This document shows, in pieces, positions 40,399 through 62,567 of a DNA stretch of 64,000 nucleotides. The notes below the pieces were generated by a model, which was given only the letters and a program-made list of their open reading frames with translations, was not told the DNA's origin and did no database searches. The translations under genes and the position numbers were made by a program. This DNA comes from Oidiodendron maius Zn. Its lineage: Eukaryota; Ascomycota; Leotiomycetes; Myxotrichaceae. The stretch lies in NCBI GenBank assembly GCA_000827325.1, contig KN832873.1, positions 2,494,245-2,558,244 of the forward strand. The letters are read 5' to 3'. The first letter of the stretch is position 1; every line of letters begins with the position of its first letter.

Positions 40399-42480
40399 TC
40401 ACTGTGATGGGAAAGCCTCACTATAGAATACCTCATGCGTAAGACGCTGCTTATCATACAAATCCATCTCACTGCCATCTCCTGAGTACCCAATCCTATC
40501 TCGATTATCATCAATAATCCGAGCGTACTCAATCAGGAGACGAAATGTATATATCTGTGTCCAGGGACTTGGTCAGCAATCTTGGCATTCATCTCATAGA
40601 AATTGACGACGTTCGTACCTCCAAATCCTCCCTCCGCAGCGCTTGGGACGCCCATTCCCTCCCCTGGCGGCCGATCTTGCGGCCCTCAAAGTCGTGCCGC
40701 TGCACGTACGGCACTTTCGTCCTGCCCCCGGCATTCACCGGGCTGCCGAGACCGATGAAGTACGTCAAGATACTATAGAGCTCATCGAACTTATTGTCCA
40801 ATGGAACGAAGTGCCGCCAGGCGAAGAGTCTCGAGTCGTGCCACTCCCTGAAAATGGTACTCTTGATCCCGAGACTCTTACTCTGCAGGAAGGCGTGCCA
40901 GCGGCCGGAGAAGGAATGTCCGTCGACGTCAACTAGGTATTTCGAGATGAATTGCTCGCCCAGTGTAGTCATGTTCTTATACGTCCAGACGTCATCATAG
41001 AAGCTGCAGTCCGGCACACAGGCGATAGCCTCCGTGAACCCGACATCCGTATGCTTCTTGGCGAATGCGGAAGGCCAGAAGCTGTCAAAGTTTACGTACC
41101 TCCCTTGAGACTTCTGGGTCATGATGCGGACATTTTCGTTGGCTATAACAGTGTTATTTGTCATTAGAACAAGGCGTTGGCGGTGCATGTTCTTCCAATT
41201 GTCAGCTGTATTCGTGCCTCCAGATGTCACTCCTCTCCAAATCATGTTATCATCTTTATCATTCCAGTCATAGTCGTATGTCGAATTGTACCTATAGCGT
41301 TCGTCGTTCGCATAGTACATGTTTGCGGGAAAGAGAATGTCGTTATTGACGTTGACTTTACACTCTCCAAAGATAGGAAGCAGCTGCCTGCTTGCAAGTA
41401 TCGAGCTTGGTGCGAATAGAAACCCATGCTTATCCTGAATCTCAGGTCCAACCGTACACAGGTCTGAAGAGCGATTGAAGTTGGTCACGAAGCCGCCTTC
41501 AGAAACCTTGTACAATGATTCAGCCGAGGCCAAGGATGACGATTTATTCCTGGCATGGGATTGAGGGGGACATGCCTCTTTAGCAATCAGCATATACTGC
41601 TGTCCGGGAGCAGAGAACCATTGCGGGTCTATGACCATGGGCTCTGTATCATTCTCCTTGAGAAATGCTGTCATATTCATCGTCCATATAGGGAGGGTTT
41701 CTTGCGCAATATGCCGACTCTCTTCTTCCTTTTTGAGTAGAGCTTGCATGTCATCCCAGGGCACAACCACTCGAGGCTGGTCCAAGCGATTCATTGCAAT
41801 ATCCATATCTGGAAGATATTCCACAAACTGTTCCACCTGTTTTACAAAGGTTTCCATTCGCCAATTAGGGTTTGTTAGCTTCCAGATTTTGCCATCCCTT
41901 ATATGCATTCCTGACACTCCGGAACTTTCATTCTCGCTCATACGCGCAGCCAAAGACCTTATTGTTGCTGGCTCGACTCCCCAAAATGGCCGCAGATCAT
42001 CCATTATCTGGCCAAAGTCGTCGATGTGATGGACATTTCTTGCCCTCGCAAATCGATACCAGTCTCTAAACCCTGGCGGAGGGTGTCTTCCAAATTTGTT
42101 CCTATATTTTGAAACAGTCTCCCTGAATGTCGTCGACTTGCTCCTCTCGTAGGCAACCCATGCCTTGTCTGCCTCCTCCATGAGGCCTCTAATTGGATGC
42201 TCATCATTAATTATTGCATGTTTCTCAAAACCGATGTTCAGGTCATAAATCTTCAATGATTCTACAACCTGTCCTACTTAGTCTAAGTTATCAAATCCAG
42301 AACAAGGGAGCTCACAGCTGGGGTCGAATGAACTTGATCCGAGGGATCATGATTTTGTCTAAAGCGGGCAATCTTTTTGCGGATATCACCTCCATAAAAA
42401 GAATTAATAGCGTATGTGAGAAGGGCTAACGTCAATCCAAGGCAAAGAAACCGTCGCTTCCCACGACCAAACCCAAACAT
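40399..42480 (-). CDS. GT90 (CAP10-like) Golgi glycosyltransferase
   Basis: Exons 42480-42316, 42268-40619 and 40554-40399 (introns 47 and 64 nt) encode 656 residues. A basic N-terminus and one hydrophobic segment (about 11-30, FLCLGLTLALLTYAI) predict a type II membrane protein of the secretory pathway. The lumenal part matches the GT90 family (Cryptococcus Cap10; related xylosyl- and glucosyltransferases): DLCTVGPEIQDKHGFLFAPS, FGECKVNVNNDILFPANMYY, WRGVTSGG, YLVDVDGHSFSGRWHAFLQS, REWHDSRLFAWRHFVP. The last exon completes the C-terminus with EYARIIDDNRDRIGYSG. In filamentous fungi these enzymes are thought to decorate glycans; the donor sugar here is unknown. Confidence 0.88.
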
Positions 42481-45056: not shown

Positions 45057-47460
45057 ATGTCGCTCTTCGGGTCATCGCCTGACGAGAACGGTACTCCTGC
45101 CATCAGCTCCAAGTCCCGCAACTCACTGTTCGACGACGATCCTGATCCAGTCCCCGGATCGAAGTCGTCTCTGTTCGCAGATGACGATGCGCCAAACGGA
45201 TCGCCATGGAGTTTGCCCACGGCCCAGAAAGCCAAGCGCGGCGAAGTGATCCAGACTCTTCTCCCAGCTTCAGACGTCCCCGACAGCTACATTGACATAT
45301 TCGATAACGTGCTCGGAGGGGGTGATGGCATCGGAGGGAAAGTTAGTGCTGCTGGCGTCGCAAAGGTTTTGAGCGCTGGCAGTTTGAGCGCCGATGATCA
45401 GAGCCGTATCGTCAGCGTTATCACCAAGGGCGGCCAGGTCACAGATCTTAGCAGGAACGAGTTCAACGTTCTGCTAGCATTGATCGGCCTAGCGCAGGAG
45501 GATGAGGACATTAACCTCGACAGTGTCGATGAGAGGCGAAAGAGTAAGTCCATGTGTTATCGAGATTGCCACTTCGTTGGTCGGGCTGGGGCTGATAGAC
45601 GACTACTGTAGATCTACCTCTCCCGAAGCTCCCAAGCCTAAATACGATAGCATTCCCAAGTACCACAGAGCTAGCTGCCAAACCTCCACAACGACCCGTG
45701 ACACCTCCCGCAGCTCCTGCAATGGAGCCTTCTTCAGCGCGGAAAACGGGCACACTACGAAAGGATTCTCTTGAGTTCCCAGAAGCTGATCCATGGGGAA
45801 GCCCTGCTCTGCACAAAGGCCACAATCATGAGAGCTCCCCCAAGCCCAAGACAACATCAGTGGGCTCGGCAAATGGAATTTATCAACCCGTTCGAACTAC
45901 AAGCAATTTCACAACCACTTCAAGGGAAGACTCCCAAGGAGCTCCCGGTGATCCCACTGATGCAAGTGTCCCAACAGGTGGGGGCTGGGGTTCGTACGGC
46001 AGCAACCCTTCTGTTCCAGCGGCATTCAATAACCCAATTACTACCAGCATAGGCGGCGGCGGGTTTGCGGCTCCAGGCTCAGGTGGCGGCGGCGATGAGG
46101 GGGGCGGTCTTGGGCCAAATGTGCCCGGTCGATCCATTGGCGGTGGCCGAGTTACAAGTGGAGGGGCGGAAGAAAATATAATCGTGAAGTTGTTGCCAGA
46201 CAAGGAGGGAATTTTCATGTTTCAACATCACAATTACCAAGTCTCGAGCCCTCGACGAGGTAGCAAGGTGGTCAGAAGGTACAGCGACTTTGTGTGGCTT
46301 CTTGACTGCCTACAAAAAAGATATCCATTCCGGCAGCTACCACTTCTACCACCAAAGAGAGTTGGAGGTACGCCCGGATTAATTTGCTTCTAACTCTGTA
46401 CCACGCTAATTACCTGCAGTCAATGGCAATCATCTTGCAGCCGATGGTACTTTTATCGAGAAGCGGCGAAGGGGCCTTTCCAGATTTGCCAATGCACTTG
46501 TTCGGCACCCTGTCTTAAACCAGGAACAGCTAGTTACCATGTTCTTGACAGTCCCAACTGTGTGCACCCAATCCTACATATCAACCGATAAGCTAATCTC
46601 TCTCAGGAACTCGCCGTTTGGCGCAAGCAGGCTACCATCTCGGTCCAGGAAGAATTCGCTGGAAAAGCCTTACCACCTGGGCTTGAGGACTCCCTGTCTC
46701 CCACCTTGAATGACATGTTCGAGTCGACCCGCACCGGTGTACGGAGGTCTGCGGAAATATATATTAACGTGTGTAATATCATGGATCGACTCGCCAAGCG
46801 AAGTGAAGGACTTGCAGCGGATCACCTTCGCCTGTCACTATCCCTTCAATCCTTGACAGATGCTTCTCAAGATACTTACTCCACGGATACAAGCGATGTC
46901 CCTATGCTCAATGAGGGATTGAATGCCACGGCGAAACATCTCTCTAATAGCCAAAGTCTCTTAGAGGACGAGGCCAAGGCATGGGACCAAGGAGTCCTTG
47001 AGGACCTGAAGAGACAAAGAGATGCGCTCGTCAGTATGAGGGAGCTATTTGATCGTCGTGATAGATACGACCGAGATAATATTCCTGCTCTGGAGAAGAG
47101 GATTGAGAGCAACGAAGCTAAACTTATTGCTCTCCGCGCAAAGCCGGATGGGATAGTTCGGCCAGGCGAGGTGGAGAAGGTTGCTGAGGCAATAATTAAG
47201 GTGAGTTGATGGCTACTTCTACACACCGTGGTATTAATCGTGTATTACAGGACAAGGAGTCGATTGTTTCTCAACACGCCCGAGGTGTGTTTATTAAAGA
47301 ATGCATCAGGGATGAGCTTATCTTCTTCCAAAAGACGCAGTTCCATATCAGCCGGTGGAGTCAAGACTGGGCTCAAGAGCGCGTGAAATATGCGGAGATG
47401 CAGGCCGACAACTGGAGGCAATTGAGCGAGGAGCTTGAGAACATGCCGCTCGGCGAATAA
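45057..47460 (+). CDS. mvp1: Sorting nexin Mvp1 (SNX8-like, PX-BAR)
   Basis: Five exons (45057-45543, 45612-46367, 46420-46559, 46607-47200, 47251-47460), introns 47-68 nt, 728 residues. Mvp1 binds PI3P and bends endosomal membrane to recycle cargo from endosome to Golgi. The N-terminal half has an EH-like helical part (VPDSYIDIFDNVLG) and a long Ser/Gly/Pro-rich linker with GGG runs. The PX domain starts at ENIIVKLLPDKEGIFMFQHHNYQV (here split: the last part continues with RRYSDFVWLLDCLQKRYPFRQLP), about 348-460. The BAR-like C-terminus (about 475-728) runs from ELAVWRKQATISVQEEF to RVKYAEMQADNWRQL. All junctions keep the conserved order. The ATG at 45057 opens with MSLFGSSP, the usual start. 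Confidence 0.94.
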
Positions 47461-48047
47461 TACCCTGTTTCACACATTGAGTACTAGGCGTTCTGTATTT
47501 TCTTTCAGCATCTAAGCGTCTAGCGAGCAAAATTGTGAATGTTGGTATTATATCCACATTGGAGAATGCCGTCTGGAACTCTCGTTACTGGCAACTGTAT
47601 ACATCGCGCTGTTCTCCACTGCAGAAATAGGTACCACCATTTTATATCCTACGTATAAGGTTGTTGTCTGGCCCGTCCATCTCACCGTGTCCCAATACTT
47701 TGCCGGGGAAATTGGGGGCCAGTTAGGCATTGTATCTTTTCAGCTCTTTTGGGACATCGGCGATGGAAACTGACCAATATTTCCTCGGCCACGCACAGTC
47801 AGTTTATGCGTATTCGAGGAGACATGATGTAGGAGAGAAATTTATAAAAAACATCTTATACTTGTAGAATCATGGATTTAAGAAAACGCAAAGTCTCACC
47901 ACAAAACGCCTCAACCCCTCGCTTATGATAAGTTACCTCGATCCTTGTCGATCTTCTAACACCATCTAATTCTCCCCTCTTCCATTAACATCACGACTTT
48001 TCCCACCACGACCACAACGAGTGCGCCGCCGCAGGAGGAGTGACAAG
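47461..48047. other. Intergenic, no gene seen
   Basis: 587 bp upstream of dcn1, AT-rich in part; should contain the dcn1 promoter. Confidence 0.35.
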
Positions 48048-49851
48048 ATGCCTCCGATCACTTCAAGTCAGAAGCTCATGGTAGGCCAGTTTATGACTCT
48101 GACGGGAGTGCCAGAGAAGACGGCAGCTAAGGTTCGTAGTTCTAAAGTTAAAAGCCCCCCGCAGTAGGAACATCTGCCTGACTAGACTTTCCTCAATAGC
48201 TTCTCAAGTTGGCGGGGTGGAAGCTCGACCAAGCTTGCGATAGGTGAGGTCCTTTCTTACCTTTATTTTCTTGCAATGCGGGAGCCTGGCCTAGGACGAA
48301 CACTCTTTCGATAGCCATGGATCCGGACTCGTTCGCCCGAATACCCAATATTATCATTACGAAGAGGGAATTTATCTATAATGTTCATGTCGACGAGTTC
48401 TTACACCATGCTTCCTCTTGGCGGTGGTATCAGAGACATGCTGGGCCGTGTCACGCTGCACCAGCCGTGTATATTACTGGAGATATGGCAGACGCAAGTA
48501 ACAGATTCACACGACTATTGCTGTTAGGAAGGATGGCCTTCAGCTCTCCATCTGGCAAGCGCTATATCATTGCGGATACTCCTATATATTTCCAAGGCAA
48601 AAATCGCTCTATTGCCACAAATGTCCCTATCACCAGTATAAAGCAAGAACTTTGGCGATCGTGCAGTTTTCTCGGGACAGAACTGGTGTCAGCAATTTGT
48701 GAAGCTGGATCAACAGATGGCTATGAACGACCCTACCTTTCTCTGCTTATGAATTATATACAACAGCCAATATACTCCGACAACTCGAGGAAACTTTCTC
48801 CTCAGTCGGCCGGTACCTACGGACGGCGTATAAGGTCGAATGATGTCGCGGGTTGCTCTAAAACCTATCAATGTGCTCTTGCTGCTCTGGTACCTGTTCC
48901 AAGTGCTCCATTCAAAGATTATCCCAGAGTTAGACGTTCTGATCAAATTGGGTCTCCGACTGAATCGACTAGCTCTGTCTTTTATAGGCTGGCTTCCGGA
49001 CCTGCAACTCTTCTTCATCCTCGGTTGAGAGATACGTCCAAATTTGATGCTAATAACCTGAACAGCTTTTTCCAATCCGGCGGATCGGCAGTGGGCTCGA
49101 AAGAAAGTGACGCTCTAGGCAAACTCTTTGAAAACTATCGAGGTTTGTGCAATCAGGATAGAACTGCATTGGCAAAGCAAACTTATATTCTATTAGATGA
49201 AAAAACCGACGAGGTCGATACTATCGGTGTAGAGGGAACGATGCAATATTTCGAGCACCTTGGTATCAACTTGGAATCCGTTGAATTCCTCGTCCCTATG
49301 GAGATAGTCCAGGCACCAGCACTTGGTGAGATTGGCAAAGAAGGCTTCGTCACAGGATGGAGAAGGATTGGGTGAGTAATTTTTATCTTAGCTTATTATT
49401 CGCTTCTAACTGGGTGTAAAGCGCGGACACAATTGCGAAGCAAAAAGCATATGTATCTGACCAAATCAAATCACTACAATCAGACATGAGTCTCTTTAAG
49501 AAGGTATACAGATACACATTTATATGCACTAAAGAAAAGGGTCAAAAGGCTCTAGCTCTTGAAAACGCCCTCGTTTACTGGAGCTTGCTCTTTAGCCCAC
49601 CTGGCGTAACGTGGATCACGGCCTCAACCAACTGGATTGAATTGTGGAGCGAGTTCTTGAAAGCAAAGTGGTCCAGGAGTGTTAATAGGGACATGTGGAA
49701 CCAAACCTTCGAGTTCTTTTTAAAAACGATGGACGACGAAACTTTGGATTTCTGGAGCGAGGATGGCGCATGGCCCGGAGTCATTGATGACTTTGTAGCA
49801 TATGCCAAGGAAAAGAGAGGAGACCTTCCAGAAAATATGGAGACCGATTAG
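48048..49851 (+). CDS. dcn1: Dcn1, cullin neddylation E3 (UBA-like + PONY domains)
   Basis: Model A: exons 48048-48131, 48200-48243, 49066-49371, 49422-49851, 287 residues, the usual family size. Dcn1 helps Ubc12 transfer Nedd8/Rub1 to cullins. The UBA-like part is residues 1-43 (SQKLMVGQFMTLTGVPEKTAA, LLKLAGWKLDQACD). The PONY/cullin-binding domain starts at SFFQSGG and includes DTIGVEGTMQYFEHLGI, then LALENALVYWSLLFSP and LDFWSEDGAWPGVIDDFVAYA. Between exons 2 and 3, model A needs an 822-nt intron (48244-49065), far longer than any other intron in this window, ending in a good branch and acceptor (GCTAATAACCTGAACAG). Model B uses a 51-nt intron (48244-48294) and keeps 48295-49371 as one exon, giving 544 residues. 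See findings. Confidence 0.9.
48295..49065 (+). other. 257-codon open frame inside dcn1, in phase with both flanking exons
   Basis: No stop codon interrupts this frame, and it runs on into the PONY exon. The first ATG is at 48317 (MDPDSFARIPNIIITKREF). Codon choice looks like that of the neighbouring genes. The predicted stretch has mixed polar and hydrophobic residues with no recognised domain; its last 80 residues are rich in Ser, Pro and Arg. A 62-codon hydrophobic frame (48840-49028) and a 121-codon minus-strand frame overlap it. It could be an extra exon, a nested gene, or remains of an inserted element. Confidence 0.5.
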
Positions 49852-50088
49852 ACTATTTGCTTCAGCTGGATGGGCGTTTGTTGGATCGCTTGAGCGCGGC
49901 ATTGCAATGGTTGCACAAAGGCGTCTATCGGGGGGAGGCTCCGTGAGGTTGAAGTTTAGATTCCAATAAACAGCCATAACTGATGACCTCAACCGTCGAT
50001 TTCTGGATGAATAATAACTGTCTATTAAGACCTAATCCGAACCCCTGGCGCCTTCCGATGCCATATAGTACAAAATATCTGGTCACGC

Positions 50089-50554
50089 TTAAAAATCCTC
50101 CTTCTCAGACCATGGTATATTGCCTCCAATCCTGCTAAGACTCTCTAAGGTTCCATTGCCCAACTTCACGGAGCTAAACTTGATCATACGCGGATCTAGA
50201 CCTAGCGTCTTCCTCACATCATCCTGGGTTTTGCTAGAGGCATCGAATCGCATTATGAAGTAGTGCCCGTCCATGTACTGCGCTTGATGCTTGTGTGTCT
50301 TCTTCGGGAGGCTGAAAATTCCCCAGTTTTTAATGCCTCGGATGGTACCTCCACTTCGAAGGATGAGCGATCCTGTAGTACGGGCAATTCTAAATGGAAT
50401 TAGCGTGTTGCGTACAATCGGAGGGATGAACAAAGAGCGCACTCTTTGACCTCTGCGAGGTTGCCCGGCCGGACCTATAAGGTATTATTAGTCAACTACA
50501 GGCAATAGGCCGTATATAATGAGTACATACGACCGCTATGAGCTCGTACAACAT
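50089..50554 (-). CDS. mrp17: Mitochondrial small-subunit ribosomal protein bS6m
   Basis: Three exons, 50554-50531 (24 nt), 50474-50443 (32 nt) and 50389-50089, with introns of 56 and 53 nt, encode 118 residues. The joined start is MLYELIAVVRPGNLAEVKE, then IARTTGSLILRSGGTIRGIKNWG and HKHQAQYMDGHYFIMRFDAS, DVRKTLGLDPRMIKFS. This is the bS6 fold as in yeast Mrp17. If the second intron is not removed, the frame is lost. The start lies 211 bp from the divergent rrb1 start. Confidence 0.93.
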
Positions 50555-50765: not shown

Positions 50766-52304
50766 ATGTCGAAACGTGCGGCGGAAGGCCTCGATAATGG
50801 AGGCGCCGCATTGAAGAGTGGTGAACGACCAGAAACTGCTGATCTGGATATTGACGAAGCGGGGGAGTTCGAGGATGAATTTGAGGACGAGTATGAGAGC
50901 GAGGACGAAATTATACAGGCAGGAGTAGATGGGAGGCCAGACGCAGAAAGGGAGGCAGAGGAACAGGCCGGTTAGTAAAACCAGAATGTAATTATGCTAA
51001 GATATGCAAACCTTTCTAATTGTACTACAGCGGCCATGGATGTAGACCAGCAGACATTCATTGTTGGTAGGAACAAACTCGAGCCTGGCCAGACCCTATC
51101 ACCAGATCTTTCGACCTACGAAATGCTCCATGCATTGAGTACCCCATGGCCTTGTTTGTCCTTCGATATTGTCAAAGATGGTCTGGGCGAAGACCGCAAG
51201 ACGTACCCCGCTACGATGTATGCGGTTGCTGGGACACAAGCCGAGAGTAAACGAGAAAAGGAGAATCAGCTTATGGTTATGAAGTTTAGCGGTCTCAGCA
51301 GGATGGAGAGGGATGATCCTGAAGAATCATCAGATGACGAGGACGAGGAAGCAGACCCAATCCTCGAGTCGAAATCAATACCCCTCACATCCACCACAAA
51401 CCGAATACGCTCACACCAAACACCTGCTTCAGATTCGTCCCGACCACCTACAACTCTGACAGCTTCTATGACCGAAGCTGGCCAAGTTCTTATTCACGAC
51501 ATCACTCCTCATCTAACTTCTTTCGACATACCTGGCACTATAATTACGCCACAACAAAACAAGCCGCTATCTACCCTCCGTATGCACAAGTCAGAAGGCT
51601 ATGCCGTGGACTGGTCTCCCCTAATATCAACTGGCAAGCTGATTACTGGAGATAATGATGGAAAGATATACGTCACGACTCGCACAGCGGGTGAGGGTTG
51701 GGCCGTTGACTCGAGACCATTTACCGGGCACAGCGGCAGCGTAGAAGAGCTGCAATGGAGCCCGACGGAACGGAACGTCTTTGCCTCTGCATCCAGCGAT
51801 GGAACAATCAAAGTATGGGATGTCCGAAGTAAGAGCCGAACCGCCGCGCTCAGCGTGCAGGTTAGTAATTCCGACGTGAATGTCATGTCATGGTCGCACC
51901 AAACCACACACCTGCTCGCGTCGGGAGCCGACGATGGTGTTTGGGCGGTCTGGGACCTCCGGCAGTGGAAGCCCCAGACATCACCGACCACCGCCGCAAA
52001 ACCCAGCCCGGTGGCCAGTTTCAACTTCCACAAGGAGCAGATTACCAGTGTCGAGTGGCACCCTACAGACGACAGCATCGTGGCAGTGGCTGCAGGCGAC
52101 GACACCTTGACGCTGTGGGATCTGGCCGTAGAGCTGGATGATGAGGAGAGTAAGGATACTGGAGGTGTCTCAGATGTGCCTCCCCAACTGCTGTTCGTGC
52201 ACTACATGGAGCATGTCAAGGAGTGCCACTGGCACCCGCAGATACCTGGGTGTGTTGTCGGCACCGGATCCGCGTTCAATGTCTTCAAGACGATCAGTGT
52301 GTAG
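50766..52304 (+). CDS. rrb1: Rrb1/GRWD1 ribosome assembly WD40 protein
   Basis: Exons 50766-50970 and 51031-52304 (intron 60 nt) encode 492 residues. Rrb1 is the dedicated chaperone of ribosomal protein uL3 (Rpl3) and acts in the nucleus. The N-terminus is strongly acidic (EFEDEFEDEYESEDE). A CAF1C/H4-binding segment follows (LSTYEMLHALSTPWPCLSFD), then five or more WD40 blades (KSEGYAVDWSPL, GHSGSVEELQWSPTE, DGTIKVWDVRS, SNSDVNVMSWSHQ, KEQITSVEWHPTDDS, DDTLTLWDLA), and the terminal signature LLFVHYMEHVKECHWHPQIPG here split, ending FNVFKTISV. A second acidic patch is at about 170-190. Head to head with bS6m. Confidence 0.95.
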
Positions 52305-53155
52305 ATATCCAATTCACCATATTACCAACTTCGTCATTGCACTTGCATCCCCCCTGAGCTGGACCGAAAAGGGGACCGGCACATGAGCCACGTGACCTGC
52401 ATAGCAGATCGCCGCAGCATGTCTCTGGCTGCTGTGCGCCTGCTTTACTCCATACATTATGCACCCCGTATTTTCTGATGTAGGTATTGAAATGACCACG
52501 CAGAATTTTCACGCTGGGGGCCAATCAGGTGGCGTGGCGGGCGAAAAAGGAAAGGAAACAAAAGGAAAAAAGAAAGGAGACGAAGGCAGAAGAGGGAAAG
52601 CCGTAGCGACGCCGTGACAGAACGAATCGCAGGGACGGAAGGTGTTATATATTCGCCGCATCGAGTAATCCGTGCACAGACAACGAGCCAACCACGGCTA
52701 CGGGCGCACGGCTCGTGACGACCGGCTTACGTGCGTACTATTGGCGGATGTGGTGAAGCGCGGTTTCCCCGCAAAGCACGCAGACGGGAGAGGGCGTTGG
52801 GGGTTCTCGGCGGAGAGAGACGGAGTGGGAATTGGGGCTGACAGACTCGCACTGTCAGTTGGGCTGCTTCTTCGTTCTTCCTCTCCTTCTCCTTCTCCTC
52901 CTCCTCCTACCCACCCTCCTCCTCATCTCAACATCACCACCACTGGCGGCGCCCTTCCCCAGCTCCGTATTCGCCCTCTCACATCGACCCGCTGCCTCTC
53001 AGGCGGCAGCTCTGTCCCCCTCAAATGAGCGAGTGCCTCACCGTCCTGATCTATGTGGAGGAGATGAAGTCGCCAATGTGACTGAGGCCCCGCGTCCTAG
53101 CCGGTCATTCCCGCGACCCTTTATAGGTCGTCCTATTCCCCGACAACTCGTGAGC
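52305..53155. other. Intergenic with CT-rich tract
   Basis: 851 bp. A pyrimidine tract (CTTCTCCTCCTCC type) spans about 52867-52927. The reading frame of the next gene is open back to 52832 but contains no ATG, and its Leu run there is simply the translated CT tract. It is best read as promoter and 5' leader. Confidence 0.5.
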
Positions 53156-53911
53156 ATGGTCTACACCTACGGCGGCCAGAACACCACCCGCGAGACCTTC
53201 TCCTTCACCCTCGCCGCGGGGCCGCCCCTCAAACTCTGTTTCGACCAGCCACTCCCCACTCCGCGCCCCACGAACCGACCCGTCAAGCGCCGGCGCGCCC
53301 TCTCTGATGTGGACGGCGATGGCAATGAGGGGAGGAAGAAGCGGCGCTTGCGGCTCTACCTCATCACCTCGCGTCTCAGTCTCCCCTTCTCCCAGCCGGC
53401 GAGCAATATCGTGAACCGTGGCGATCCCAAGGTAGCGATATGGGGCAGGGCGAGGGCGCTCAACAAGAATGTGCTCCGGAGAGCCGCGATCATGAATCGA
53501 GTGCGGTTAAGGCTGGCCGCGACGAAGGGCCTGCACTACCAGCGCGAGCCGAACAGGGAGGCAGTCGGTTTGCGAGAGCTCGTGGTCCCGAAGCCACGTA
53601 ACCATGATTTTCCCCTACCTCCTTCACCGCTCGGCCTGTCTAATTATGATGCGCTGGACTTGGAAGATGAATTATTTGAAGATGAGCAGGAAGAAGGCGC
53701 CGAGCGATGCTCGATCGTCTATAGCGATTTCAACATCATGAACCCGATAACTAGTGATGGGGATCCGTATGAGTATCTCGACGCCCTGGACGGTATCACG
53801 CCGGAAGATTTACCTGATAGTCCGCCCGCCCCACCAGAAGAAAGCATCGTGGAGATGCTGCGGGAGAAGGATGGGCAGGGAGAGAGCATATTCGTGCATG
53901 TAAAGTCATAG
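53156..53911 (+). CDS. Unknown protein with nuclear-localisation-like basic clusters
   Basis: Single exon, 251 residues, starting MVYTYGGQNTTRETFSFTLA. Basic clusters RPVKRRRALS and RKKRRLRLY at about 40-65 look like a bipartite nuclear signal. A central part rich in Arg (RRAAIMNRVRLRLAATKG) could be helical. The C-terminal third is acidic and Pro-rich (DLEDELFEDEQEE, DLPDSPPAPPEES). I do not recognise the family; conserved uncharacterised euascomycete proteins of this layout exist. ATG 53156 is the first in frame. It is convergent with uraD-like gene 118 bp downstream. Confidence 0.65.
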   Translation: MVYTYGGQNTTRETFSFTLAAGPPLKLCFDQPLPTPRPTNRPVKRRRALSDVDGDGNEGRKKRRLRLYLITSRLSLPFSQPASNIVNRGDPKVAIWGRARALNKNVLRRAAIMNRVRLRLAATKGLHYQREPNREAVGLRELVVPKPRNHDFPLPPSPLGLSNYDALDLEDELFEDEQEEGAERCSIVYSDFNIMNPITSDGDPYEYLDALDGITPEDLPDSPPAPPEESIVEMLREKDGQGESIFVHVKS

Positions 53912-54887: not shown

Positions 54888-56518
54888 ATGCTGTGCTCAA
54901 GTCAGTTATCTTTTTTTGTGGCCCTAATCTAGATATCTCAATACTGACTTGTCTAGTTTCTGGCGAAGCTCCTCAACATCCTGTGGCTTCAACGAAGTCA
55001 GGTAAGTTAGGCAAGAGCCTGGAAGAGCAGCAATCGACTAACATAGCCCAAGGGAATGTCTACGAGAAGCGATTGATCGAGGCTTATATTGCGGAGAATC
55101 ATAAGGATCCTGTGAATGGAGAAGATCTCGAAGTTACAGATCTCATAGACCTCAAATCCTCTAGGATAGTCACACCTCGCCCTCCAACCCTCACATCCAT
55201 TCCCTCCCTCCTCTCCACATTCCAGAATGAATGGGATGCACTTGCGCTCGAGACCTTTACCATCCGACACCAGTTACATCAGACCCGACAAGAGCTAGCA
55301 ACTGCGTTGTATCAACATGACGCAGCGATTAGAGTCATTGCACGCCTGACCAAGGAGCGAGACGAGGCGCGAGACGCATTATCCAAGGTTACGATTAATG
55401 CCGGCGCTGGAGATGCCATGCAAATCGATAATCAAGGACTGCCGGATGCATTGGTGGCCAAAGTTGAAGCTACACAAGAGAAGTATGTCGCAGAAGCAAA
55501 TTTTCATATGAAAATGTAAATGCTAACCTTAGTCAATAGACTTTCCAAAAGCCGCCGAAAACGCCCCGTTCCAGAGGATTGGGCCACGGCAGAGACGATT
55601 GAGAAATTTGGGGTGGCATCTTCTTCAAAATCGCTTTTCCCTGGCTCTACATCCCTTGTAGTTGATGATGCAGGTAAATTAGCTGTGTCCGCCGGCTCGG
55701 ATGGTACTGTCGGTGTTTATTCGATTTCTGGGAACAAAGTCCAGAAGTCATTCAATGCTGGAAGTGCTGTCACTGACGCTTTGTGGTATGGGAGCCAACC
55801 TGTTGTCTCAACATCCTCTGGTGCTGTGAAAGTTCTCGGCGATGATGAAATAACTTTTACTTCCCATGCCGGTAGCGCCAATGGATTGGCACTACACCCA
55901 AGCGGAGACATCCTTGCGTCTGTCGGAGTTGATAAGAGTTTTGTCTTCTATGATCTGGTTGAAGGATCACCCGTCACGCAAGTTTACACAGACTCAGGTA
56001 CGTATGCCTATATTTACCTTCGACGTCAGCCTAGGCTAATCAGGCACTCAGGTCTCACCACAGCTGCGTTCCACCCCGATGGGCATCTATTCGCCGCAGG
56101 AGGCGAAGATGGCCAAATCAAGCTCTTCCATGTCAAGACAGGCGAAAACGCTGCAAATTTCGAGTTAGGAGGGCCTGTCCAAGACATCTCATTCTCCGAG
56201 AACGGCATCTGGTTTGCAGCTGTTGCAAAAGGCTCTACCAGTGTTGTCATCTTCGACTTACGGAAGGAGGGCAAGGCTGCGGAGGCAAAGGTATTGGAGA
56301 TTGGCGGCCAGGTCGACAGCATCAGATGGGACTACACAGGGCAGTACCTGGCAGCGTCGGGACCGGGGGGCCTCACCATTTCACAATACACTAAAGGCTC
56401 GAAGTCGTGGTCAGACATTATTAGCACTGCTGTCCCGGCAACGGCGGTGGCGTGGGGCCCCGAGGCGAAGAGTTTGGTCACGGTCAGTGTTGAAGGGGTG
56501 GTAACAGTACTTGCATGA
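54888..56518 (+). CDS. prp19: Prp19 U-box/WD40 splicing factor and E3 ligase
   Basis: Five exons (54888-54900, 54957-55001, 55053-55482, 55540-55997, 56052-56518), introns 51-57 nt, 470 residues. Prp19 scaffolds the NTC complex that activates the spliceosome. The U-box at 1-70 opens MLCSISGEAPQHPV, then SGNVYEKRLIEAYI and GEDLEVTDLI. The coiled-coil tetramer region follows (TFQNEWDALALE, RQELATALYQHDAAIRVIARL). Seven WD40 repeats fill about 190-470. The first exon is 13 nt. The second intron (55002-55052, 51 nt) has no in-frame stop, so an unspliced message would insert 17 residues in the U-box; the spliced form is the one matching homologues. Confidence 0.95.
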
Positions 56519-57324
56519 GGGTGTGATTTCCGGAGTTTGGACAAATCGAGTCGTTCTTGCTAAAAGCAATAATATCTCAGCAGCCTTGTAGCATGTAGTT
56601 CTAGAGAATGCAGAGCAATGGAGATGCTGCGTCAATCAAGTAGCAGCACCTGGCGATTTCATACTCCACAGCGTAAGGCCGCTGTCTATCCTTTACCCTC
56701 AAGATCGGTCATCCCTGGCAGCCAAGGTTTACGGTATAACGAGCTGATAATTGGCCTGGGTTTGCGCGCGGCTTTAACGATGAGGTCTCTGGGCCTGCTC
56801 TCCGGTCACGGTCACACTTGCCCAATAATAATGTATTCTTGTCTCGAGCACGACGATTTGTCCGTTTCCCGGGTACTCGATACACATTCAATGCGACGGC
56901 GGTAGCTCATCTCCGAGCATCGACGGCGCTGGCGCCCTAGAGGCACGGCTATCCGCGCCCATGGATTTACCGAGTGTGAACGTGACTGAGACGAGGGAGG
57001 AACCTCTTCTTATCACCTCACTGCCGGCGCCCATCTCTCTCCACCCTACTCCAACAACACAATCACGCAACGCGCCAGAACCGGCAGGCAGTATCTTGCA
57101 GCCTGCAGTGTACTGCCTCCCCGTGGTACTGTACAATCGTTTAGTTTTAGAGCACTGTTGAGCCGTCAAGGCTAGGTCGTCCGTCAAAGTGGGTGGTGAT
57201 GGACGGATGGCCACCAGAACACCAACGCCACCACAACAAGGCATGCTTACTTCTCTCTTTTTCCCACTTCCGTTCAGCGGACAAACCTAACAGCATTCCA
57301 TAGAAGCGGTCATCGTCCCCCCAA
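56519..57324. other. Intergenic, with GTACTGTAC palindrome
   Basis: 806 bp, no gene seen. GTACTGTAC at 57126-57134 belongs to the same motif group found at 38036-38106. Should contain the promoter of the SIM-RING gene. Confidence 0.4.
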
Positions 57325-58436
57325 ATGTCGCGGCACTCTACACTCTCACCTTCCTCGATATTCTCCTACCGAAATCCATCGTCTACGAACTATCAGCAAT
57401 ATCGTCCGGCCGTCCCTTCTTTTGATAGAGCGGGGCAATCATTTGGAAGGCGGCGTACCGTGCATCCCCATAATCCACCAATGTACCGTGTCCATAGATC
57501 AACGGAAGATATGCCCCAAAGATCTCGACCTCCGCCACGGCTAGAGCATCGCGCCTCAGAGACCCTTACAATCGATCTGACCGATGAGAATGATGATATC
57601 CCGGAGGAGGAAGCTCACCCACAGAGGCGGTCACCATCTGGCAGGAATAGTGGTGTAGACGAAGTGAACATCATAGATCTTACTGATGACAACGATGTTG
57701 AGATTACTCGAGTTGCACCTCGCCCTTTACCGTCTATAGGTGATATGGACCTGAACATACTCCCTCCGATGAGGCACCGGGCTCTCTTCTTACCCCAGGA
57801 GCCGCCACGGAATATCAATAGGATATTTCCAACACACAACCAGCTGCCGAGAGGTTTTCATATCACCGCAGGAGGACAGGGTGAAATATTCTTCCATCCT
57901 TCTCCAGACTTCCTTGAACATATTCAAATGTTGGAGGATGCTCAGTCGATAGTTGGCCAGATGGATCTTCAGCCCCAGAATGGTTCTCCGTCTCACTCAA
58001 GACCAGATCATGTCCCTCCTCCTCCTGCGAGCGAAGGCTTTACAAGATCGCCCACGGAGAAAGATGTCGTGATCTGTCCCAGCTGCGAAGAGGAGTTGAT
58101 CCATGACAAGGGGCCTGATGAGCTGGTTGTAAAGAAGGGGAGTAAAGTTCCAACACGAAAAGAGCGGGAAGAGCATCCATTCTGGGTGGTGAAGAACTGC
58201 GGTCACGTAAGTGCTTCTCTGTACACCAACATTGACCACTAGTTAATTTGACACAGGTCTATTGCAACCGCTGCTATCAGAATCGTCTACCTTCCAAGCA
58301 GCAGCCAGCAGAAGTCCACTTTCGAGAAAAGGCCTCTACCGCCAGAGGGTCCAAGGGCATGGTCCCGATGTGTTCGGTAGAGGAATGCCAATCAGAGGTC
58401 AAGAATAAGGATAAATGGGTGGGTGTGTTCCTCTAA
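57325..58436 (+). CDS. SIM-containing RING-type protein (STUbL-like candidate)
   Basis: Exons 57325-58206 and 58257-58436 (intron 50 nt) encode 353 residues. Two acidic hydrophobic motifs, TLTIDLTDEND (about 80-90) and VNIIDLTDDND (about 113-123), fit SUMO-interaction motifs. A C-terminal RING-like site has CPSCEEEL, then KNCGHVYCNRC over the junction, and a later CSVEEC. The order SIMs then C-terminal RING is that of Slx5/Rfp-type SUMO-targeted ubiquitin ligases. That function is an inference. The N-terminus is Pro/Arg-rich and disordered. The ending KWVGVFL is taken as true because it follows the RING directly and resembles the usual C-terminus of this group. Confidence 0.78.
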
Positions 58437-60248: not shown

Positions 60249-61757
60249 TCACAACTTCGAGAAGACAGTTCCCACAATGCCACTACCTTCCACAAGCGTG
60301 CTCCTCTCCCTGACCCAGGCTGACAAGCCCCGACGCCCATTCTCTACGCCCACGCCGCTCAGTTTCCAACCACCAACGCTCATCTCCGCAGGGCTCTCGC
60401 CCCACGTATTAATCCAGGTGATGCCTGCCTCTAGTTTACTGATGATATTATGGCACTGGTCCAGATCTTTGCCAAATACACCAGCCGCAAGACCGAGTTT
60501 GGTATTGTTGGCTCGGGCAATGACTTCGTCAATGGTGTCCCATGTAAGGATGCACAGCACCGGCCCGAAGATCTCTTCTGTGATGATCTTCATATCATCT
60601 GTACAGTCTGTGAAGACAGTGGGTTGGATCCAGAAGCCCTTCTCATATCCGGTAGGGATATTTACTGGTCTTCCTGGGCCACCATACAAGAGTTTCGCCT
60701 TATCAGCGTCCACACCGTGATTTATGTAGCCGAGGACCTTGTTGTAATGGTTCTCTGACACCAGAGGGCCAAAGTTGCTGTTCGGGTCCATAGGATCGAG
60801 AGCGCGGATATACTGCGTCTTCTCTATTAGGAGCTTCTCGAATGCGCCTTTCATGGATCTGTGAACAAAGACCCGAGTTCCGTTTGTGCACACTTGGCCC
60901 GTGGAGAAGAAATTGGCCATCATAGCTCCGTTAACTGCGTTCTCCAGATCCGTGTCGGGGAGGATGATCAGAGGACTCTTCCCACCGAGTTCCATAGTTA
61001 TGTATTTCATCCCTCCTGCCGCTGAAGCAGCGACTTTCTGGCCCGTAGAAACTTGCCCGGTGAAGCTGACCTTGGCAATTCCGGAATGAGATGTTAGATA
61101 ACCACCAACAGCACCATCTCCATGGATGATGTTGAACACTCCCGGCGGAACTCCCGCTTCTGTGTATATCTGCGCGAGGATCTGCCCGTGTAGTGGGGTG
61201 ACCTCTGACGGTTTGTATACCATGCAGTTTCCGGCTGCGAGGCAAGGGGCAGATTTCCAAAGTGCAATCTGGATGGGGTAGTTCCAAGCTCCAATGCCTG
61301 CGCAAACTCCGAGAGCCTCTTTCTTCGTATATATCCAGGCATCGGGTCTTAGCTGTGTGGTCTCTCCATTCAAGCCGCCACTCGCTACCAAGTGGGCGAA
61401 GTACTCTAGAACATCAGCGCCGGTGACCACGTCCACTGTGCTGGTTTCAGAAAATGGTTTGCCCGTATCCCGAGTCTCAATCCGGGCGATTTCATCGTTG
61501 CGGGCGCGTAGGATCTGGACAGCCTTGAGGAGGATGCGCGAACGGGCTACTGGCGACGTCTGAGACCAGGAAGCAAAGGCATTCTGTGCCGAAGTGACAG
61601 CTCGGTCGACATCAACATGCGAGGCTGTCTGCACCTCTGCAAGGGGCTCGGCGGTGGAAGGGTCGATCGCCCAGAAGCAATTGCCAGAGGTCGCTGGCTG
61701 GGGTGAGCCGTCGTAGAAGAGCTGCTGTGCAGGGTAGGACATGCTTACGAGGGGCAT
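60249..61757 (-). CDS. Betaine-aldehyde dehydrogenase (ALDH superfamily)
   Basis: Single exon, 502 residues from ATG 61757 (ATG 61742, MSYPAQQ, is an equally good start). It should oxidise betaine aldehyde to glycine betaine with NAD(P). ALDH signatures are complete: GAWNYPIQIALWKSAPCLAAGN (given here in part), KPSEVTPLHG, the SFTGQVSTG nucleotide loop, general base Glu256 in MELGGKSP, nucleophile Cys290 in FSTGQVCTNGTR, and EEIFGPVL. The sequence resembles BetB/BadA-type enzymes. The divergent neighbour is choline oxidase, the enzyme of the previous step, which strongly supports the substrate. No introns, unlike most genes here. Confidence 0.9.
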   Translation of the reverse strand: MPLVSMSYPAQQLFYDGSPQPATSGNCFWAIDPSTAEPLAEVQTASHVDVDRAVTSAQNAFASWSQTSPVARSRILLKAVQILRARNDEIARIETRDTGKPFSETSTVDVVTGADVLEYFAHLVASGGLNGETTQLRPDAWIYTKKEALGVCAGIGAWNYPIQIALWKSAPCLAAGNCMVYKPSEVTPLHGQILAQIYTEAGVPPGVFNIIHGDGAVGGYLTSHSGIAKVSFTGQVSTGQKVAASAAGGMKYITMELGGKSPLIILPDTDLENAVNGAMMANFFSTGQVCTNGTRVFVHRSMKGAFEKLLIEKTQYIRALDPMDPNSNFGPLVSENHYNKVLGYINHGVDADKAKLLYGGPGRPVNIPTGYEKGFWIQPTVFTDCTDDMKIITEEIFGPVLCILTWDTIDEVIARANNTKLGLAAGVFGKDLDQCHNIISKLEAGITWINTWGESPAEMSVGGWKLSGVGVENGRRGLSAWVRERSTLVEGSGIVGTVFSKL

Positions 61758-62567
61758 CAAAATCCTATCGTATGAAAGAAGGAAGGTTTCAAAAATGAAA
61801 ATCGCCAGCTGTTGTGATCATGTAGCAATCCCAGTCCTCGTTATTCACATGCTGGATAAAGGACGTAATTGTGGCGAGCATCTCAAGATGGCTTCAATGT
61901 CGACCCTAACCCTATTCCAGGAGCAGTCGTGAGCGGCGTCCCCGCACTGCGGATAACGAAACCTTGACACTGGCAGACCGACGGAAGATTGAACTTCGCA
62001 TCCCTATCCCAGGTAAAGATCCCCGCCGGTATTACTATTTGTTTACGTAGCACGACGAAGGGATTTCCTCCCAGGTGGCGCTAGACCCGCCAGAAGCCGG
62101 CGCTGCGATTGGCCTCTAGTCTCTTAAGAACTTTCCACTCTTGAGACGCCTAAGACTTTTTTTGCCCTTGCCGGGCTTATCTATCCGTCGGTCTATCCGC
62201 TCGTTGCAACCGGTATATATGTGCGGCCAGGTGGGTATTTCCTAGCAAGGTAGGCGGCGCTTCTGATTTCGGCACAAGATTGTCTCTCCTTTAGACGCGG
62301 TTTAAAGATTTCCTCTTTGTCTTATATCAAGTGGTGCAAGAGCATATTCTCCCTCTGGAAGAGGATCCAACTACAATATAAGGACCTGGAGAAGGGAAAC
62401 CACAAATAGAACTAGAACTACAGAGAGAATAAGAGTGAGACAGTGTGCCAGAGAAGAGAAGAATGCGAGAAGTGCTGCAAAATCATCATCCGGCGACACA
62501 GATCTAACGACTTAGGATTTATACTTGTATTTGGTACAATACAACCCAAGATCTCTTGATACACACC
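61758..62567. promoter_or_regulatory. Shared promoter of the choline-to-betaine gene pair
   Basis: 810 bp between divergent starts. A TTATCT word at 62177-62182 reads AGATAA on the other strand, a fit to the fungal GATA-factor consensus HGATAR. One site is weak evidence for nitrogen control. Confidence 0.4.

Follow-up and report, generated by a model that had tools for sequence, protein, structure and literature searches.

The dcn1 gene in this stretch of Oidiodendron maius Zn DNA is interrupted by an interval of 822 nt that is open, almost from end to end, in the one reading frame that continues into the next exon. Is this an overlong intron and nothing else, or does it hold coding sequence, living or dead, and by what route could the gene make use of it? 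An earlier note, drawn from the letters of the window (the whole 64,000-nt stretch analysed), had offered three readings: the interval could be an alternative exon, it could encode a domain newly acquired, or it could have arisen when an element inserted in an old short intron.

The dcn1 gene and its long intron

The gene lies on the + strand. Exon 1 (48048..48131), which opens with the start codon at 48048 and was assigned from the sequence together with the UBA_4 match of the spliced product, and exon 2 (48200..48243), which ends in phase 2 after ...WKLDQACD, each encode part of the UBA domain. Exon 3 (49066..49371) encodes the UBA end, a linker and the start of PONY, and exon 4 (49422..49851) most of the PONY or Cullin_binding domain (Pfam PF03556, E 2e-33) and the stop codon. 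Spliced in silico, 48048-48131, 48200-48243, 49066-49371 and 49422-49851 join into a protein of 287 aa, in which Pfam places PF14555 UBA_4 at residues 12-50 (44.6 bits, cut-off 21.8) and an intact PF03556 Cullin_binding (PONY) domain at residues 151-272 (113.2 bits, cut-off 27.9). Thirteen PDB sequences match this product, and the only one that reaches its N-terminus is a DCN1-like protein 1 chain, which aligns with residues 3-275 (E 2.1e-34). Residues D235, A261 and D267, spaced 26 and 6 residues apart, are candidates for the DAD patch, their counterparts in the human and yeast proteins being assigned tentatively, with the help of the PDB-chain alignment. The patch consists of Asp, Ala and Asp, and in yeast of D226, A253 and D259 (PMC4886823), a spacing of 27 and 6 residues.

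The long intron (48244..49065, + strand, 822 nt) has a GTGAGG donor, an AACAG acceptor, and at 49050 a CTAAT branch-like site, with the third A lying 12 nt before the acceptor. The remaining dcn1 introns are 68 and 50 nt long. Intron 1 (48132-48199) begins with the donor GTTCGT, unlike the commoner GTRNG form. The coordinates and frame of the 822-nt interval between dcn1 exons, as first described, check out, and so does the ordinary 287-residue Dcn1, which results when 48244-49065 is removed by way of the 3' acceptor. The Cullin_binding domain occurs a single time in the genome (45.9-Mb assembly, 58 contigs), and ordinary Dcn1 therefore requires that all 822 nt be spliced out. We propose that it would be produced in this way, by splicing out 48244-49065.

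The earlier note had placed the extra sequence between UBA and PONY, which proves to be mistaken: the junction falls inside the UBA domain. It lies between residues 42 and 43 of the 287-aa Dcn1, where WKLDQACD/SFFQ aligns with WKLDVATDNFFQ of the DCN1-like protein 1 chain with no gap at the junction. When the segment is inserted, as in the 544-aa form considered below, the UBA_4 match shrinks to residues 12-43 and 31.7 bits, against residues 12-50 and 44.6 bits in the 287-aa form. From the gapless alignment and the loss of match on insertion, it follows that the extra sequence sits within UBA.

Pfam identifies six neighbouring genes: a GT90 gene (40592-42277, - strand), a sorting nexin with PX and an Mvp1-type BAR (45599-47206, + strand), a ribosomal S6 gene of mitochondrial bS6 type (50092-50484, - strand), a CAF1C/WD40 gene (50979-52301, + strand), a Prp19-type WD40 gene (55520-56515, + strand) and an aldehyde dehydrogenase (60252-61817, - strand). 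Among the nine neighbouring frames scanned with Pfam there is no viral or transposon match, and the open frames at 52757-53908 (384 codons) and 57304-58239 (312 codons) have no Pfam match at E 0.001. The short introns and the gene content (Mvp1-type sorting nexin, Prp19-type WD40 protein, mitochondrial bS6-type protein) suggest by themselves a filamentous fungus.

Chance, periodicity and codon choice in the open frame

From stop to stop the open frame spans 48248..49375 (+ strand, 375 codons); it covers the interval from its fifth base and continues without a break into exon 3. The stop-free frame in phase with the PONY exon is thus real, with no stop in 48248-49065 and an ORF that runs through exon 3. 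On the + strand the three frames of 48244-49065 hold 15, 1 (at 48245) and 7 stops, and on the - strand they hold 16, 19 and 7.

The chance of 257 open codons is 6.2e-7 at the stop rate of sampled non-coding sequence, 3.1e-5 at the stop rate of the interval in all six frames and 4.4e-6 at that of its five other frames, while five Markov models give 7.8e-7, 4.4e-5, 2.7e-6, 5.7e-4 and 5.2e-5. Seven of these eight models span 6e-7 to 5e-5; the eighth, at 5.7e-4, is circular, being an order 2 model trained on the sense strand of the interval itself. The non-coding training set, which was used for the codon scores and for the periodicity, third-position and codon-count nulls, omitted ORFs of at least 100 codons and is therefore stop-rich, so that the 6.2e-7 figure and the nulls that share this set are somewhat too favourable to coding; the test with five Markov models was designed to avoid it. 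The claim that 257 open codons are unlikely by chance survives, at 6e-7 to 5e-5 in seven of the eight models and 6e-4 in the circular one.

These figures bear on the plainest alternative, an ordinary long intron that is open in one frame by accident, with the 287-aa Dcn1 as the sole product of the gene. Long introns do occur in fungi, 61 of more than 700 nt being predicted in Yarrowia (PMC2911113), and our case was selected from an uncounted number of introns. Even with some hundreds of long introns per genome, a rough estimate, a per-intron probability of 6e-7 to 5e-5 (in those seven models) makes such an accident improbable. For Yarrowia, PMC2911113 describes a deficit of introns that combine a length of 3n with the absence of stops.

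The 264 kb of sequence sampled contain 293 frames that stay open for 130 codons or more; 39 of these are low-scoring and have no better-scoring overlapping frame. The 375-codon dcn1 frame is the longest of the 39, about 102 of its codons being exon 3; without these it ranks second, behind a 320-codon frame that runs off its sampled stretch. A low score does not exclude a gene, since the mitochondrial bS6-type gene is itself among the 39. One sampled stretch (L007) has 383 bases given as N.

The unevenness of bases among codon positions exceeds that of stop-free nulls (chi-square 22.9, P 0.0105; P 0.017, 0.003, 0.012, 0.002 and 0.002 under the five Markov models), which speaks against an accidental opening, and among 77 host coding chunks the period-3 value would rank at the 31st percentile. 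The two halves of the segment do not agree significantly in their periodicity (P 0.20), nor do interleaved blocks (P 0.12), and the position score drops mid-interval. Third-position T is 0.371 (P 0.0075 against the stop-free null, 0-0.006 under the five Markov models), a value reached by 1.3% of the 77 host coding chunks; first-position G is low, at 0.258, with 6.5% of those chunks as low. In-frame TTA, CTA and TCA together occur 5 times, versus 10-15 in the nulls (P 0.003, and 0.003-0.058 under the five Markov models).

In favour of an accidentally open intron, the scores for codons and amino acids lie close to the non-coding null. The codon score of the segment is -0.040, against a host coding mean of 0.062 and 5th percentile of -0.002 (80 chunks); synonymous usage ranks at the 64th percentile in the non-coding null and at the 2.6th among 77 coding chunks, and amino-acid usage at the 96th and the 5.2th, respectively. 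In exons 3 and 4 of dcn1 the synonymous scores are neutral (-0.015 and -0.010) and the amino-acid scores clear (0.078 and 0.071); the exon 4 sub-scores were computed, in the correct frame, from 49420, which precedes the first base of the exon (49422) by two. In all, the 257-codon stretch resembles protein-coding sequence, still in use or not, more than it does a product of chance, and the accidental opening strikes us as unlikely. We infer that the segment encodes protein or once did so; it is probably coding in origin, with a codon choice unlike that of typical host genes.

An antisense gene was also considered and rejected: the - strand ORF at 48713-49114 is without a Pfam match, and no alternative frame scores as coding.

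Possible sources of the segment and routes into the frame

Searched against the 45.9-Mb assembly, the DNA of the interval has one match, itself, and the encoded protein has itself and one chance-level match (E 1.73). At the interval borders the longest direct repeat measures 7 nt and the longest inverted one 6 nt, close to what chance would give. In view of the single copy in this assembly and the lack of long border repeats we reject a repeat or transposon, and the inserted element of the earlier note finds no support as a repeat. The direct repeat of 7 nt, TCCGGAC, occurs at 48322 and 48995, near the ends of the open stretch, at about the chance expectation.

The encoded segment has no known domain in Pfam, PHROGs or NCBIfam (E up to 10), and no match among PDB sequences (E up to 10) or plasmids (tblastn, E up to 1). 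Its peptide pattern fits four stretches of viral contigs, none confirmed in a scan that reaches close relatives only, and 59 bacterial or archaeal genome contigs, again with none confirmed. PHROGs covers viruses of bacteria and archaea only, and fungal RNA viruses are poorly covered in the viral searches; a search with the RdRP_4 profile gave no match in the genome and none in any control either. The impression that the encoded sequence belongs to no family is thereby confirmed in the libraries searched (Pfam, PHROGs, NCBIfam, PDB, viral, prokaryotic and plasmid). We call the segment an orphan in the sense that it has no match in the collections searched, namely Pfam, PHROGs, NCBIfam, PDB, its own genome, viral contigs, prokaryotic genomes and plasmids. 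AlphaFold2, run on the single sequence, returns a mean pLDDT of 31.8 with all 256 residues below 50, a result not readable as disorder.

At the RNA level, Rfam gives three sub-gathering matches in 47800-50200, one of them inside the interval (E 3.9), and the interval folds no more strongly than its shuffles (z 1.45; 17 of 20 shuffles fold as well). Neither result gives any sign of a structured intronic RNA. The lack of any homologue in the libraries searched, and of an RNA-fold or Rfam signal, also sits well with an intron that is open by chance.

The same searches weigh on a further possibility, that a captured or dead coding fragment (from a lost gene, another species or a DNA-copied RNA virus) lies in an old short dcn1 intron, is spliced out with it, and is open because it is recent. 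Such a fragment would account for a frame that is open and periodic but does not share the codon choice of the host (third-position T 0.371, first-position G 0.258), and for intron ends that look like those of an ordinary short intron split in two by extra sequence, the neighbouring dcn1 introns being of 68 and 50 nt. Yet no source turned up in its own genome, in viral contigs, in bacterial or archaeal genomes or in plasmids, long border repeats are missing, and the in-phase entry to exon 3 would have to be a one-in-three accident. We regard a captured fragment as a serious candidate, if a somewhat unlikely one.

How could the frame be used? Retention of the full intron meets a TGA at once, at 48245-48247, so that use of the frame would call for either an internal start or an acceptor other than the ordinary one. 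The acceptor route is a possible but weak 51-nt intron (48244..48294, + strand), whose removal alone would join exon 2 to 48295 (acceptor 48294 rather than 49065) and give 544 aa, consisting of the UBA start, 257 residues, the UBA end and PONY. The fit in phase that had been pointed out, with GT and AG 51 nt apart, is correct but carries no weight as evidence, because 75% of the 3360 GTs in the window have a phase-compatible AG 40-100 nt downstream, at a length divisible by 3. The 51-nt intron contains no CTRAY branch site, and the A of its sole CTNAC, a CTTAC, is 16 nt from the donor, too close to it: the median donor-to-branch distance is 41 nt in 77 strict intron-like sites, a pattern-picked set that leans long. 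The 544-aa form would also cost UBA its last positions (44.6 to 31.7 bits), and we think it very unlikely to be made. Of the alternative exon and the acquired domain proposed before, we still favour an alternative coding segment, and the notion of a domain between UBA and PONY falls, given that the 544-aa form would split UBA.

An internal start at 48317, replacing UBA, is a simpler use of the frame than the 544-aa form. The proposed alternative first coding exon (48317..49371, + strand) begins with an ATG in the context GCCATGG, preceded by a CT-rich stretch, and would encode 249-250 orphan residues and then exon 3; read from ATG 48317 through exon 3 and exon 4, the product has 494 aa with PONY complete. 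The + strand of 48250-49049 has no GTRNG donor-like site, versus 4-5 expected, a zero count shared by 8 of 628 sampled-sequence chunks and 4 of 76 coding chunks. Further consensus-donor introns within the segment are thus unlikely, with the caveat that other donors are also in use, dcn1 intron 1 itself starting with GTTCGT. On the antisense strand of 48250-49049 there are five GTRNG sites. An upstream ORF (48276..48314, + strand, 12 codons and a stop) lies out of frame and ends 2 nt before ATG 48317; in an internal transcript, should there be one, this ORF could tune translation.

Our preferred reading is that the intron houses an orphan segment that codes for protein and whose frame continues into the PONY exon. 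A transcript starting within the intron would be translated from ATG 48317 through 49371, joined to exon 4, and in the resulting 494-aa protein about 250 new residues would replace UBA at the N-terminus, with PONY complete. By analogy with mammalian DCN-like proteins, this isoform might still promote cullin neddylation while being placed or regulated differently; the internal promoter and the function are guesses on our part. That the orphan segment is in present use through an internal start, giving a second dcn1 product, we put forward tentatively, as quite possible if short of probable. The statement that one fungal dcn1 gene yields two neddylation factors, a UBA-PONY Dcn1 and a second protein in which PONY follows 250 orphan residues, whether intron-born or captured, is rather doubtful.

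Comparison with known systems

Exitrons are stop-free, alternatively spliced portions of coding exons. The dcn1 segment is like them in being a stop-free stretch, divisible by three, that would be kept or removed within the proposed exon 48317-49371; it differs in that only the acceptor would lie inside that exon, the donor being the ordinary end of exon 2. Among the matches listed in the literature on exitrons and fungi no title has a fungal exitron, and among those listed for an insertion in fungal Dcn1 no title has such an insertion.

A second parallel is the case of YALI0D18403g in Yarrowia lipolytica, where a 3,478-nt intron holds a coding sequence of 353 aa and the gene has two transcription starts (PMC2911113). 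Common to both cases are a long intron with coding sequence inside and a second start, reported there and proposed here. In that source's account, the 353-aa coding sequence is a separate annotated gene in the intron, and the starts were shown by cDNA, whereas the dcn1 frame continues into its host gene and its internal start is a proposal. Should the dcn1 segment prove to be a captured fragment, it would show, at an early stage, how coding sequence comes to lie in frame within an intron; an opening by chance would make it a useful caution regarding long open introns.

The closest comparison of function is with the Dcn1/DCN-like (DCUN1D) co-E3 ligases for NEDD8, which the 287-aa product resembles in combining UBA_4 with Cullin_binding. 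In the mammalian DCN-like proteins PONY is common to all, and the N-termini differ and govern localisation (PMC4886823); UBA is dispensable for neddylation activity in mammals (PMC4886823), and monoubiquitylation of DCNL1 requires it (PMC6393609). The role of the variable N-termini is described in PMC4886823 as largely unclear. If the 494-aa form is translated, a fungal gene would swap its ubiquitin-binding domain for an unrelated N-terminus by means of an alternative first exon. Two differences stand out: the mammalian N-termini come from separate genes (five DCNLs, per PMC4886823), whereas here one gene would give two, and the N-terminus proposed for dcn1 resembles nothing in the libraries searched. 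An alternative N-terminus for a fungal dcn1 would add a new form to the theme of variable N-termini, which is already known; if the proposal is true, a single gene would achieve through its choice of first exon what in animals is spread over separate DCN-like genes.
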